Under the pieces are notes generated by a model. The model did not search any database. It saw only the letters and a program-made list of their open reading frames with translations, and was not told the origin of the DNA. Both the position numbers and the translations under genes were made by a program. From a bacterium (GTDB lineage Bacteria > NPL-UPA2 > JAUVJM01): 64,000 nucleotides of DNA. Of this stretch, positions 13,464-52,463 are shown piece by piece. Position 1 is the stretch's first letter, and the number at the start of each line of letters is the position of its first letter. Location of the stretch: NCBI GenBank assembly GCA_030606215.1, contig JAUWGW010000003.1:57683-121682 (forward strand), in the 5' to 3' direction.

Positions 13464-13713
13464 TAACCTTATACACAGTATCGTGCGGCCTGACTCGCTC
13501 TTTAACTTTTGTCCCGACGCTATCTCCTTTCTTTGCGACTTCAATTGCCTCGTGTTCAATCTGCATAGATTCTACTTTCTGCTCAAAGTTTGTTGTGTGT
13601 CCCCGAATGGCAATCGTATCTCCTACTTTCAGCTCGCCTTCAGAGATCTCAATAACAGCGGCTTCCACATGGCTGAAATATTTTGCAACCTTACCGATTT
13701 TTTTCTCTTCCAT
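13456..13713 (-). CDS. Small translation elongation factor-like (EF-Tu domain 2-type) barrel protein
   Basis: The 85-residue protein begins MEEKKIGKVAKYFSHVEAA and contains GELKVGDTIAIRGHTTNF and DSVGTKVKERVRPHDTVYKV, the pattern of the beta-barrel domain 2 of translational GTPases as a stand-alone protein. Related small proteins are annotated as translation elongation factor-like, with no settled function. The start at 13713 has a strong GAGGAGGTGAGG upstream; an ORF start at 13752 would include that site. It lies between folC and the M20 peptidase gene on the same strand. Confidence 0.75.
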   Translation of the reverse strand: MEEKKIGKVAKYFSHVEAAVIEISEGELKVGDTIAIRGHTTNFEQKVESMQIEHEAIEVAKKGDSVGTKVKERVRPHDTVYKVIA

Positions 13714-13773
13714 TTCCCTCACCTCCTCCTGTGCGAATTGTATCACAACCATCAGTTGGGTGGAAGATTAAAA

Positions 13774-15213
13774 TCAAGCTTGATTACTTTGATCACGTAT
13801 AAGATTCAAATACTGCAGTATTTCTCCAACAAGGAAAAAGGAACCCGCAACACAGACTAAGCTCTCATCTTCTGCCTCGTTTAATGCAATTTTCATAGCA
13901 TCGGCGGAGGAATTTGCTGAGTGAAGCAGTCTCGTTTTAGATTGCCACGTCGTCCCGAACGTCTTCGGGACTCCTCGCAATGACATATTGGGGTGGGTAT
14001 TCACGTTTTTACACAGCCTTGCCAGGTTTTTTTTCAGATATAATGGCTCTGCCGCCCTTGGATTATTCGCTTTTGTAAGAATTATCTTATATGCAATAGG
14101 AAATAACTCCTTCCCTACCCCGCTGATATCTTTATCAGTACAAATTCCGAAGACAAGAACAATCTTTTTCTCCGGGAAAAGTCTTTTTATTGTGGACGCA
14201 AGACTTCTGGAAGCGGCTGGATTGTGGGCACCATCCAGAAGAATTGGGGGTTTTCCGGGAAACAGTTGAATTCTTCCCGGCCAGGTTGTTTTTTTAAGTC
14301 CCCTCTTTATGTAAACCGGGTCAATCCCGAGAAACTCCGCTGAACAAAGCGCAGCTCCAGCGTTTAGAATCTGGTGTTTTCCGAGGAGAGGAACTGAAAG
14401 AAGGTCATAACTATTTTTGGTTCCATATACCTTAAACTTACATCCTTCAAGAGAAATGGATTCCTCTTCAAGATAGATTTGATGTGAGCTCGAAATTCCC
14501 GGTGAATCATTTTTCATCCGAACTTCCGTCATTACAGAGTTTTTCTCTCTACATTTCTCAAGCAGAACCTTGCGCACATCCCTTTTCTGAGTAGTGGTTA
14601 TGACAGGGATTCCTTCTTTTATAATTCCGCTTTTCTCCTTAGCAATTGCAACCCGTGTTTCCCCAAGTTCTCCTGTATGGTCAATATCAATGCTTGTGAA
14701 AATGGAGTTCAGGGGTGTTACAACATTTGTTGCATCAAGCCTCCCCCCCATCCCGACCTCAAGAACAGCAAAATCCACTTCTTCACTTGCAAAGTAAAGA
14801 AAAGCCATCGCTGTATATATTTCAAAGAAACTTGGTTTTTCAAGACAATCCTTTTTTAGTTTCTCAACTGCAGATTTTATATCTTCTACAAGAATACATA
14901 TTTTCTCCTCGGGTATCAACTCATCTCCGATTCTTATTCTCTCCCTGAAAGAGATGAGGTGTGGGGAGCTATAAAATCCGGTTTTGAAACCAGCTTCCTT
15001 CAGAATAGATGTAAGCATCGCTCCAGTGGAACCTTTACCGTTCGTCCCTGTAATGTGAATAGCCTTGATTGAATTGTGGGGATTACCGAGATAATTTAGA
15101 AGTTTTTCGGTACGTGAGATACTATATGTTTTCTTATTATATTTTGAAGGAGGTTTTCTCTCATAATCAACAAAACTCTCAAGGTAAGACAGTGCTTCAT
15201 CATACTTGCTCAT
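13774..15213 (-). CDS. folC: Bifunctional folylpolyglutamate/dihydrofolate synthase with an in-frame repeat insertion
   Basis: The 479-residue protein is a Mur-ligase-family FolC: ITGTNGKGSTGAML forms the ATP-binding loop, then SPHLISFRERI, LEVGMGGRLDATNVV, IDHTGELG, and LLDGAHNPAAS in the C-terminal domain. It adds glutamate to dihydropteroate/folates. Between the ANNPRAAEPLYLKKNLARLC and ALNEAEDESLVCVAG regions an unusual stretch MSLRGVPKTFGTTWQSK appears; its DNA is a palindromic intergenic-type repeat (13940-13985) read in frame. The protein is therefore longer than usual there. Whether it is fully active is unknown. Confidence 0.9.
   Translation of the reverse strand: MSKYDEALSYLESFVDYERKPPSKYNKKTYSISRTEKLLNYLGNPHNSIKAIHITGTNGKGSTGAMLTSILKEAGFKTGFYSSPHLISFRERIRIGDELIPEEKICILVEDIKSAVEKLKKDCLEKPSFFEIYTAMAFLYFASEEVDFAVLEVGMGGRLDATNVVTPLNSIFTSIDIDHTGELGETRVAIAKEKSGIIKEGIPVITTTQKRDVRKVLLEKCREKNSVMTEVRMKNDSPGISSSHQIYLEEESISLEGCKFKVYGTKNSYDLLSVPLLGKHQILNAGAALCSAEFLGIDPVYIKRGLKKTTWPGRIQLFPGKPPILLDGAHNPAASRSLASTIKRLFPEKKIVLVFGICTDKDISGVGKELFPIAYKIILTKANNPRAAEPLYLKKNLARLCKNVNTHPNMSLRGVPKTFGTTWQSKTRLLHSANSSADAMKIALNEAEDESLVCVAGSFFLVGEILQYLNLIRDQSNQA
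13940..13985. repeat. Palindromic repeat inserted in frame within folC
   Basis: GTCCCGAA (13952-13959) pairs with TTCGGGAC (13964-13971), and outer arms ATTGC (13941-13945) and GCAAT (13977-13981) also pair. The sequence resembles the common ATTGCGAG...GCAATGACA genomic repeat and is translated within FolC without disrupting the frame. Confidence 0.75.
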
Positions 15214-19919: not shown

Positions 19920-20004
19920 TTTTACCTCTCCACAACTGTTTATGATTATAGGGGCTAACCACAGTGAAATCAAGAAAATTACAAAAAGACCTTAATTGAA
20001 TTTT
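19920..20004. repeat. 85-bp direct repeat, copy 1 (upstream of DUF5674)
   Basis: This block matches 22195-22279 at 82 of 85 positions in the same orientation. Both copies lie directly before a leftward accessory gene and contain the same promoter. Confidence 0.9.
19945..19973 (-). promoter_or_regulatory. Promoter of the DUF5674 module, within the 85-bp repeat
   Basis: On the minus strand TTGATT and TATAAT are separated by exactly 17 bases. The leader to the start codon is about 50 bases. Confidence 0.75.
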
Positions 20005-22194: not shown

Positions 22195-22279
22195 TTTTAC
22201 CTCTCCACAATTGTTTATGATTATAGGGGCTAACCACAGTGAAATCAAGAAAATTACAAAAAGATCTTAATCGAATTTT
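22195..22279. repeat. 85-bp direct repeat, copy 2 (upstream of fic)
   Basis: This copy matches 19920-20004 with three transitions and fills nearly the entire gap between the RelE stop and the fic start. Confidence 0.9.
22220..22248 (-). promoter_or_regulatory. Promoter of fic, within the 85-bp repeat
   Basis: The same TTGATT-17-TATAAT pair as upstream of DUF5674, with a leader of about 34 bases to the fic start. Confidence 0.75.
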
Positions 22280-22280
22280 C

Positions 22281-22613
22281 TTAAGTTTTTTGTATTCTCC
22301 TGAGTACACGTGCCTGAAGAAGTTCCTGAAGGTCCCGGCGGCCATCAAATATGCCTATGACATAAAGATTTTTGTCTTGCTGAAGGTAGACGATTCTATA
22401 CGGCTTATAAAATACTTCTCTGTATTCGTAAGTATTTATTCTCTTTAATTCAGGTACTATCCTTCCTCTTTGAGGTGCTTTGCCAAGGCTTAGGATAGTG
22501 GTCTTCAGGCGGAGAAAGATATGTTCAGCGGCTTCGGGCGGGTCGTGTTCCTCAATATAGTTGCAGATTTCTTCTATATCAAGTTCAGCATCTATGGTTA
22601 GATAGACATTCAC
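22281..22613 (-). CDS. Type II toxin, RelE/ParE family
   Basis: The 110-residue protein resembles RelE/ParE toxins: a helical N-terminus (ELDIEEICNYIEEHDPPEAAEH), LGKAPQRGRIVPEL, and the strand pair REVFYKPYRIVYLQQD followed by VIGIFDGRRDLQEL. RelE-type toxins cleave mRNA at the ribosome and ParE types poison gyrase; the sequence alone does not separate them. Its start overlaps the antitoxin stop (ATGA), the classic coupled layout. Confidence 0.88.
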   Translation of the reverse strand: MNVYLTIDAELDIEEICNYIEEHDPPEAAEHIFLRLKTTILSLGKAPQRGRIVPELKRINTYEYREVFYKPYRIVYLQQDKNLYVIGIFDGRRDLQELLQARVLRRIQKT

Positions 22614-22891
22614 TTTTTCTGAACACGCCTGCGACGATTAATATTTGTAAATGCCTTCACAGCCGGCTTAATTTCACCAGATGTTATAGCAGATATGCCC
22701 ATAGCTGCTATTTTAAGCATAGTTAAGGAGTCTTGGATTTTCTGATATGATTGTATATCTTGAACAACCATTTTAGCTTCACCATTATGGGTGATAAACA
22801 TTGGACTATGGGATTCAGAAACCCTTGACAGGACATCAGATGCGTGTGTTTTAAGATAGGTAATAGGTTTGATGTTCTTGCTTAGCGTCAT
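22610..22891 (-). CDS. Antitoxin, Phd/YefM family
   Basis: The 93-residue protein begins with a Phd/YefM-type fold (SKNIKPITYLKTHASDVLSR, PMFITHNGEAKMVVQDIQSY), which dimerises and binds DNA. A C-terminal tail would wrap the toxin, and the extreme end is Arg-rich (NINRRRRVQKK). It precedes and overlaps the RelE-like gene. It likely represses its own promoter. Confidence 0.88.
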   Translation of the reverse strand: MTLSKNIKPITYLKTHASDVLSRVSESHSPMFITHNGEAKMVVQDIQSYQKIQDSLTMLKIAAMGISAITSGEIKPAVKAFTNINRRRRVQKK

Positions 22892-47769: not shown

Positions 47770-48309
47770 TCACTTAATCTCTAATAATATTTTATTATAG
47801 ATATCTTCTGTGCCGTATTTCTGAGAGATACTCTTAAATTCTTCGCTTTTGATATCTATATTGTTATACTTTACCAAATCGATAATATCCATCAGGTCCT
47901 TATGCTCACGTTGCGAAGGATTATTCTTTATTGAGTGGAGCTTAAGTGCTATCAGATGCAAAAGAGATGGAATAAGAAACTTCTGGCTGGCGATAGTAAT
48001 CTCTTTGGCATCTTTTATAACTTTATCTAACGTATTTTTGTCAACAAACATGAAATCAATATCCAGAATATAGTGTTTTACACTTTTTAACCTGCTAAAC
48101 AACTTCCTCCTGTTATCCTCTTTATAGCCTTCTTTTTCTAACAGAACTAATGCTTTCTTGAAATCATTCTCTGTTGTCAAAAAGTCTATATCTGCAGTTT
48201 GGTGCGATACGTTATAATAATTAACCGCAAAACCACCTATTAGAACAGCGACTGTATGTGTCTTTTTTAATATAGCTGAAACTAAATGAAATTCTGTCTC
48301 ATATCTCAT
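47770..48309 (-). CDS. AbiEii-like nucleotidyltransferase, 179 aa
   Basis: The protein has the pol-beta-type core AVLIGGFAVNYYNVSH followed by TADIDFLT with its Asp-x-Asp, a third acidic strand ILDIDFMFV, and a helical C-terminus with SQREHKDLMDIIDLVK. This is the small nucleotidyltransferase fold of AbiEii/MenT toxins, which modify tRNA or proteins. It is followed directly by a 57-residue partner and has its own promoter. It lies beside the far end of the CRISPR array. Confidence 0.82.
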   Translation of the reverse strand: MRYETEFHLVSAILKKTHTVAVLIGGFAVNYYNVSHQTADIDFLTTENDFKKALVLLEKEGYKEDNRRKLFSRLKSVKHYILDIDFMFVDKNTLDKVIKDAKEITIASQKFLIPSLLHLIALKLHSIKNNPSQREHKDLMDIIDLVKYNNIDIKSEEFKSISQKYGTEDIYNKILLEIK

Positions 48310-49622: not shown

Positions 49623-50889
<1,267 letters not shown>

Positions 50890-50899
50890 TTTAAAATCC

Positions 50900-50930
50900 T
50901 CACCACCGTCCCAAATCCCCGCGACACCGA
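50900..50930. repeat. 31-bp direct repeat, right-hand remnant of the cas6 3' end
   Basis: All 31 bases equal 51803-51833. On the minus strand it reads in the cas6 frame KSVSRGFGTVV, then RILKCS and a TAG that overlaps the cas1 start. It lies between the nucleotidyltransferase stop and cas1. Confidence 0.95.
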
Positions 50931-50942
50931 TTTTCTCCCAGC

Positions 50943-51530
50943 TTAAGTCAAAGGCCCTGCTTCATCAAGTGCTTTTTCCAACAAGTCAGAAATGCCCAGG
51001 TCTTCAGCCCATTGTTTAAGATAGACCATGTTGAGTTGTTCCCCCTGCACCTTCAAAACACCCAGCACATCACTCCATTGACGGTCTGAGATACATCCTC
51101 CAATCTTATACCACTTCAATTTATTGATAATAATATCTTCCGGTGTGGCAAAGAAAAGCTGTCGTGGGCTATCTTCAGAAACAGGCTTCGGAAATCGCCG
51201 TAAAAAAGCCTGTTTGTCAAAGGGCTGGTCCTTGAGAATAAACACATCTACTTTGAACATTGTCTCAAGATGAATAAGGTTGAAGGATGACTGGTGCTTG
51301 ATTGCATCACGGATCATTTCAGCGTCTACATAAAACTTTTCTTTTAGGGATTCTTCAATAGGAGATATTTGTTCCCGCTTAATATCAGCTACAATGTCCA
51401 CATCTACCGTCGCACGAGCGACACCAAAAGCAGAACTTGCTAAAGAGCCACCTATATGGTAGGCAATACCAAGTTTTTCAAAAACCCTCACAACTTTGAG
51501 ACTGATCTCAATAATATCGGGATGTTTCAT
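50943..51530 (-). CDS. Nucleotidyltransferase (AbiEii/MNT-like) inserted in the cas operon
   Basis: The 195-residue protein has a pol-beta-type start (LGIAYHIGGSLASSAFGV, then RATVDVDIVAD with Asp-x-Asp), a third acidic strand MFKVDVFILKD, and a helical C-terminus LFFATPEDIIINKLKWYK typical of DUF1814-like transferases. It follows its partner gene by one base. Together they sit between cas6 and cas1 inside a perfect 31-bp direct repeat, so they look like a late insertion rather than part of the CRISPR machinery. Confidence 0.88.
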   Translation of the reverse strand: MKHPDIIEISLKVVRVFEKLGIAYHIGGSLASSAFGVARATVDVDIVADIKREQISPIEESLKEKFYVDAEMIRDAIKHQSSFNLIHLETMFKVDVFILKDQPFDKQAFLRRFPKPVSEDSPRQLFFATPEDIIINKLKWYKIGGCISDRQWSDVLGVLKVQGEQLNMVYLKQWAEDLGISDLLEKALDEAGPLT

Positions 51531-51531
51531 C

Positions 51532-51795
51532 TTACCGGCCCCCCTTTTCTTTTACTAAATCCCTAATTCGTCGAGCCAAAGACGCATCTTTATATAAAAG
51601 TGAAACAAATCGTTGTATGCGAGCATCCAGCGTTTCCTCAGGATAACGCTCACAAATTCCTTGCCAGGATAATTGACGCGTGGTCTTGCTCAGCGAAACA
51701 ACCATCTGCAAACGTCGAAAGATAGTCGCCTTGCGAATCAACCCTATCTGAAACTGCTCAGCTTTCCTATGTGTGTCAGAAGATAATGTTTTCAT
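51532..51795 (-). CDS. Small helical partner of the inserted nucleotidyltransferase
   Basis: The 87-residue protein includes AEQFQIGLIRKATIFRRLQM, VVSLSKTTRQLSWQGI and FVSLLYKDASLARRIRDLV. Proteins with this RKAxxxRRLxxVxSLSxTT pattern commonly precede AbiEii-like nucleotidyltransferases (recall) and may act as antitoxins. Its ATG overlaps the cas6 stop (ATGA), so translation is coupled to cas6. It lies inside the 31-bp direct repeat pair. Confidence 0.8.
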   Translation of the reverse strand: MKTLSSDTHRKAEQFQIGLIRKATIFRRLQMVVSLSKTTRQLSWQGICERYPEETLDARIQRFVSLLYKDASLARRIRDLVKEKGGR

Positions 51796-52463
51796 TTAAC
51801 CTTCACCACCGTCCCAAATCCCCGCGACACCGACTTCCCCAGACCAAAATAATCAGGTATTTCAAAATTAACCGAAAAACTTCCCAGAAACCCAAGCATG
51901 GGAGTGCGTTTGAGCGAGGTTCTAACTTCTTTCATATTGATAATATTTGCCTTAATAGGTTCACAAACTGTATAGCCCAACCCCTTAGACATAGAAATAA
52001 TATTGCCAACTAATATTTTTGCCAATAACTCTTTTTTTTCCCTCTGACCGCTAAGTCTTCTATATTTCTCATAATTCCTTTCATTCAAAGCAAGCCATGG
52101 GGTGAGGAAGGAATAAGGGAAAATTGTTTTAATTGTGCCATAGAGTTCCTCTTGAAACACTATATCCTTTTTAAGAATCTTATATTTCTCATAGGGTAGT
52201 GCAATTGTTTCTCCAACCAAATGAAGATTAGAGATAAGTTTTGCAGCCTTTCCAATGCCTACTAATAAACAGTTTCTTTGAATACATTTATATTGAACAA
52301 GAGGATATCTATACTTGACCGTACCATCTTCACTATGTTGGTGAAGCAATATTTCATTTGGATACAGGCCAGCAATGGTTCCCCGTAAGTCTTTTGATTG
52401 GAATCCTAACTTATCTATTGACCTATCAAACTGTAGACAAACAACAGAACTCAATACTTTCAC
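51792..52463 (-). CDS. cas6: CRISPR-associated endoribonuclease Cas6 (divergent)
   Basis: The 223-residue protein ends with the Cas6 signature FGLGKSVSRGFGTVVKVK, a Gly-rich loop, and has the strand pattern of a RAMP fold (MKVLSSVVCLQF at the start, TVKYRYPLVQYK in the middle). It processes crRNA. The catalytic His may be in LLHQHSEDG, but this is uncertain. The last coding bases are part of a 31-bp direct repeat whose other copy lies downstream of the inserted module, so the current C-terminus VKVK probably differs from the ancestral end. Confidence 0.85.
   Translation of the reverse strand: MKVLSSVVCLQFDRSIDKLGFQSKDLRGTIAGLYPNEILLHQHSEDGTVKYRYPLVQYKCIQRNCLLVGIGKAAKLISNLHLVGETIALPYEKYKILKKDIVFQEELYGTIKTIFPYSFLTPWLALNERNYEKYRRLSGQREKKELLAKILVGNIISMSKGLGYTVCEPIKANIINMKEVRTSLKRTPMLGFLGSFSVNFEIPDYFGLGKSVSRGFGTVVKVK
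51803..51833. repeat. 31-bp direct repeat, copy within the cas6 3' end
   Basis: Identical to 50900-50930. It encodes the Gly-rich loop region of Cas6 and marks the left boundary of the inserted module in cas6 reading order. Confidence 0.95.

Follow-up and report, generated by a model that had tools for sequence, protein, structure and literature searches.

Within the type I-B CRISPR operon of the window, the 64,000-nucleotide stretch of DNA analysed here, a two-gene module lies between cas6 and cas1 and is bracketed by two copies of the cas6 3' end, an arrangement that very probably records an insertion accompanied by duplication of the gene end. The same kind of bracket recurs at the ends of other genes and around unrelated toxin–antitoxin (TA)-type modules, surrounding about one in five or six of those surveyed and none of 87 control genes. 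On the whole we lean towards a reading in which a TA-like module entered the cas6–cas1 junction through homology on one side only and has been retained there through addiction. The general pattern is more interesting than the single cas6 locus.

The gene pair between cas6 and cas1

Pfam and PADLOC support the assignment of Cas6b, Cas1b, Cas3b, Cas5b, Cas7b, Cas8b and Cas4b, and all genes of the locus are transcribed from the minus strand in the order cas8b, cas7b, cas5b, cas3b, cas6b, an 87-aa gene, a nucleotidyltransferase gene, cas1b, cas2 (labelled from its position and size), cas4b and the CRISPR array. The stop codon of the intact cas6 (51792–52463, minus strand) overlaps by 4 nt (ATGA) the start of the module's first gene, which encodes an 87-aa all-helical partner and putative antitoxin (51532–51795, minus strand). 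It is followed by the gene for a 195-aa nucleotidyltransferase, a putative toxin with a MenT1/AbiEii-like fold (50943–51530, minus strand), with cas1 (49891–50889, minus strand) as the neighbour on the target side. These two genes make up the whole content of the insert, which holds no transposase, integrase or other recombinase. A further nucleotidyltransferase-like gene (NTP_transf_5/AbiEii-like) occupies 47770–48309, just past the CRISPR array.

The bracket is an exact 31-bp direct repeat, with 50900–50930 identical to 51803–51833 in the same orientation, and similarity stretches to 39 nt, of which 36/39 (92%) match (50895–50933 against 51798–51836). A search with the 31-mer, allowing up to three mismatches, returned exactly two matches in the 1.52-Mb genome and none with the reversed control; by our own arithmetic, an exact repeat of this length within 3 kb would arise by chance with a probability of about 1e-12. 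Around the exact core the copies show slight differences, and these speak against a duplicate created by assembly. The upstream copy in the direction of transcription (51803–51833) is the 3' end of the intact gene and closes the annotated cas6 with GKSVSRGFGTVVKVK before the stop codon (tail given as GFGTVVKVK). The downstream copy (50900–50930) is a remnant cas6 3' end between the nucleotidyltransferase stop and cas1. Read in the cas6 frame, it runs to RILKCS and then to a TAG inside cas1 (50880–50882), giving an overlap of 10 nt measured from the first base of the cas1 ATG. A preliminary description of this DNA had reported the perfect same-orientation repeat around the module, the reading through to RILKCS and a TAG overlapping cas1, and the overlap of the annotated cas6 stop with the first cassette gene, all of which are borne out here. 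Its frames and gene ends for the two copies also hold, with the correction that its "left" and "right" follow transcription order and are swapped relative to the coordinates.

Neither the nucleotidyltransferase nor its partner matched a Pfam or NCBIfam family above cut-off or an entry in PADLOC or PHROGs. The residues G28, S29, D43, D45 and D95 of the nucleotidyltransferase (a GS motif, a D-x-D motif and a third aspartate) are invariant in 29 homologues, and its AlphaFold model (pLDDT 92.8, pTM 0.88) finds its best structural match in the MenT1 toxin of the MenAT1 complex (E 8e-7), a link that a profile search also makes weakly (E 0.0012). The partner is modelled as four helices (pLDDT 92.6); a partner ORF, picked automatically, lies directly upstream of the nucleotidyltransferase in 73/80 loci, and the two are a single ORF in two relatives (L033:4059–4937 and L034:4707–5600). 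The pair resembles TA systems of the MenAT/AbiEii type (MenT1, Rv0078A) in the nucleotidyltransferase fold, the catalytic residues and the small helical partner in the same operon, but differs from them in that the window's nucleotidyltransferase is marginal in sequence, falling under the Pfam AbiEii cut-off, and its partner found no match in a fold search of the PDB. Judged from sequence and structural models, the gene pair likely acts as a TA module, in which the nucleotidyltransferase would be toxic and addiction would retain the module. Homologues of the nucleotidyltransferase are spread across many phyla, with distant ones on 6/72,556 plasmids, and no carriage of the module was found in phage and viral collections. 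Nor was a consistent cas association of these homologues seen: a cas6/cas1 motif scan marks only the window copies and, in G007, a distinct module of DUF6036 type.

Brackets in relatives, at other genes and around other modules

The preliminary description had looked to relatives for an empty cas6–cas1 site with a single copy of the repeat, and among the six compared none came to light; every relative with a cas1 at least 60% identical (6/6) holds cargo directly upstream of cas1. Nor do the relatives all carry the same module with the same repeat, the outcome which that description had set against its own reading; their modules differ. In G093 (L126, G093:C6, 11304–13174), cas6 is followed by a pair consisting of a 106-aa gene and an NTP_transf_8 nucleotidyltransferase and then by a 45-bp repeat of the cas6 3' end. 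In G008 (L125, G008:C103, 977–1090) the order is a DUF4143 ATPase, a cas6 3'-end remnant and cas1, and in G046 (L128, G046:C60, about 13665–13780) it is a cas6 3'-end remnant, a Schlafen/AlbA_2 gene and cas1, the resident cas6 being of another type. Three further genomes (G007, G123 and G144) hold other nucleotidyltransferase-type cargo in the junction, with no repeat detected. The cas6–cas1 junction is itself an insertion hotspot.

Homologous loci were screened for direct repeats straddling the module, and the same bracketing emerged at the 5' ends of hycI, lpxA, hsdR, DUF58 and ABC-ATPase genes and at the 3' ends of cas6, VWA and ridA genes, with the identities of the target genes backed by Pfam. 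The repeats comprise 46 bp of the 5' end of a hycI-like protease gene (L012, copies 96% identical), 126/144 bp of lpxA (L010, G137:C4), 110 bp of hsdR (L105), 71/77 bp of the DUF58 gene (L079) and 82 bp of the ABC ATPase gene (L101), together with 134 bp of the 3' end of the VWA gene (L096) and 63 bp of that of ridA (L072); in each of these cases the neighbouring gene retains one complete copy. At L090 the two copies are 100% identical. Around the homologous modules at these different gene ends the repeats measure 34–144 bp; overall, repeat length ranges from about 25 to >140 bp and the ends of the insert differ between insertions, variability that argues against a sequence-specific transposase. 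Within L105 (3867–5667) the hsdR 5' end is present three times, with a Y1/RAYT-type transposase between the first two copies and the nucleotidyltransferase pair between the last two, from which it appears that unrelated cargo has used one gene end twice. A HepT module, in turn, is bracketed at a gyrB 3' end. The idea of a module that lacks a transposase or integrase and is flanked by a duplicated gene end, as the preliminary description put it, is therefore supported, and the arrangement recurs at other genes and in other phyla. Insertion with gene-end duplication stands, and is peculiar neither to cas6 nor to this nucleotidyltransferase family, since HepT and ParE modules behave alike.

At lpxA, a single genus offers both occupied and empty sites. 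G137 and G146 both carry the module and an lpxA remnant and share the same left junction, and G147, whose lpxA is 93% identical, and G145 have neither module nor remnant and represent the empty site; the lpxA loci inspected outside this genus likewise lack both. The remnant in G137 is a hybrid, its left half resembling the genome's own lpxA and its right half, with the cassette, resembling G146, which indicates that homologous recombination has acted within the gene end. A further gene nearby, which we take to be DUF6487-like, lies after the nucleotidyltransferase in G146 (L154, G146:C20) and before the lpxA remnant in G137 (L010).

Brackets are enriched around TA-type modules. In a first control, 15/73 nucleotidyltransferase loci were bracketed, against 5/538 pseudo-cassettes slid along the same loci. 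A filter dropped low-complexity and multicopy repeats prior to the final counts, and HepT and ParE loci were drawn from the same genome set as the nucleotidyltransferase loci; after filtering, brackets were present at 13/77 and 3/24 loci of the nucleotidyltransferase family, 7/27 HepT loci and 5/28 ParE loci, or 28/156 TA-type loci in total, and at 1/199 slid windows. The control genes gave 0/30 for methyltransferases, 0/29 for ClpP and 0/28 for S23, and 28/156 against 0/59 for methyltransferases and ClpP combined corresponds to a Fisher p of 6e-5. A few of these 28 brackets are something other than duplicated gene ends (L108 holds tandem cassettes, L055 paralogues, and L035, L086, L169 and L175 possibly interspersed elements, which may also account for some of the sampled non-coding repeats), and the true rate of gene-end events is below 28/156; the contrast with zero in the controls stays. 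The repeats at L004 and L055 (probable paralogues), L108 (tandem cassettes) and L097 (a CRISPR array) were set aside. S23 genes had at first scored 5/28, all of them low-complexity, multicopy or tandem repeats that the filter took out. The S23/IVP genes (L300, L304, L315, L317 and L320) commonly have degenerate simple-sequence or multicopy repeats on their flanks, in contrast to the TA modules, whose gene-end repeats are unique.

The genome of the window contains further TA-type genes. Bracketing repeats are absent at seven other stretches of it (five HepT, one ParE and one partial nucleotidyltransferase). Elsewhere in the window, an 85-bp direct repeat with copies about 96–97% identical (19920–20004 and 22195–22279) brackets a pair of Fic-family and ATPase_2 genes, the second copy lying directly downstream of a Phd/YefM–ParE pair (22281–22891, minus strand), and constitutes a second duplication-bracketed insertion.

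Possible routes of entry

We infer both the one-sided homology and the addiction-based retention, and for the former, taken as the mechanism of insertion, we hold belief and doubt to be about evenly balanced. Incoming DNA bearing a cas6 3' end together with the module would pair with the end of the resident cas6. Non-homologous repair would attach the far side of the module a few tens of bases before the stop codon of the resident gene. The product would consist of an intact cas6, the module, the leftover cas6 3' end and cas1, with no gene broken and no integrase required. Direct repeats ordinarily favour precise deletion of the DNA between them. Cells that deleted the module would be killed, and brackets would thereby persist chiefly around addiction modules.

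The divergence of the two copies bears on this mechanism. Across nine curated coding repeats, third codon positions account for 33/48 differences (of the 48, 30 are synonymous and 18 are not), against the roughly 45% that we estimate if one copy merely decays (p about 8e-4), and this excess favours copies that drifted apart while functional as genes and came together later. The curated set was used for the test, the automated version being unreliable through the choice of wrong ORFs; with automatic gene choice over all loci, 60/128 differences are at third positions, a figure lower partly through wrong frames. Only three differences (one synonymous, two not) separate the copies in the window, which may or may not be of allelic origin. 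The tail of cas6 can be read in the same light. An in-place duplication that gave cas6 its new end, VKVK, as the preliminary description proposed, is possible and, given the third-codon excess in the curated set, is not the sole option; Cas6 C-terminal tails differ among relatives, and VKVK may be a newly acquired end or, equally, the one that a donor allele naturally had.

Several other histories would leave a similar bracket. Were it a true target-site duplication, a transposase or retroelement acting in trans would have produced staggered ends that copy 30–150 bp, and the copies would have drifted afterwards. The single copy on each side of an otherwise intact target gene fits such a history, as do the copies at L090 and L012 with their 96–100% identity and the insertion of a Y1/RAYT transposase at the hsdR end of L105, bracketed by that very end. 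However, a repeat of such variable length, insert ends that are not fixed, an insert without a recombinase and a third-codon bias in the curated set that is unlike the neutral decay of a relic all make this history unlikely. Alternatively, the remnant could be old and the nucleotidyltransferase pair passive cargo, if a new effector block bringing its own cas6 had joined an older adaptation block at the cas6 end. The 3' ends of cas6 are strongly conserved, G008 and G046 have remnants next to cas1 or to other cargo, and the resident cas6 of G046 is of another type, all in keeping with such an exchange of CRISPR modules. Yet the exchange leaves the bracketing at hsdR, lpxA, hycI and other genes unexplained, and the near-identical copies in the window would demand blocks from closely related sources, so that we regard it as improbable.

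The gene order around lpxA raises another route, in which the module with a piece of its target would excise as a circle through the repeats and re-enter other cells by a single crossover at the same gene. The position of the DUF6487-like gene in G146 compared with G137 does resemble a circular permutation, but this is a single case in which the G146 contig stops before lpxA, and circles would explain spread within one gene and not the capture of new targets; we consider them very improbable as a general explanation. Entry by one-sided homology is the reading that we carry forward. Extended beyond this locus, it leads to a tentative and somewhat doubtful generalization: unrelated small addiction modules may share a transposase-independent route by which the end of the target gene becomes duplicated, with repeats persisting where loss is lethal, junctions such as cas6–cas1 serving as hotspots and the bracket becoming the signature of a working addiction module.

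Known systems and wider meaning

Homology-facilitated illegitimate recombination is known from the competent bacteria Acinetobacter, S. pneumoniae and P. stutzeri and has been proposed for Vibrio T6SS effector–immunity modules (PMC5361080). The route suggested here is like it in having one homologous anchor and one non-homologous joint, in placing a gene end behind the module and in needing no integrase, and both the hybrid lpxA remnant of G137 and the third-codon excess are compatible with it. The Vibrio cassettes belong to T6SS clusters and involve displacement, whereas here the modules are of TA type and lie at a wide range of unrelated genes across many phyla, with the gene end duplicated. 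About 10% of small variable genome segments are flanked by direct repeats ascribed to illegitimate recombination (PMC2884548); in that study these are mostly <30 bp and no link to TA modules was noted, whereas the repeats here are mostly 34–140 bp and enriched around TA-type modules. The ccdAB module at folA–apaH in E. coli is likewise a two-gene chromosomal TA system in a conserved junction without a recombinase, but there the spacer was replaced and the gene end not duplicated; looked at as a strain-level case of duplication, it offered none. A literature search, with subscription journals mostly outside its reach, returned no report of TA modules bracketed by gene-end duplications.

In the window, a toxin-like pair that bears no family name appears to have been spliced into an immunity operon with both cas6 and cas1 unbroken, and each downstream start codon there keeps its own copy of the sequence upstream of it. 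Excision of such insertions through recombination between the repeats is predicted to be possible and to kill the cell when no antitoxin is provided. For the broader matter of how solitary TA modules that lack mobility genes have come to reside in so many chromosomes, the bracketing provides a measurable footprint.
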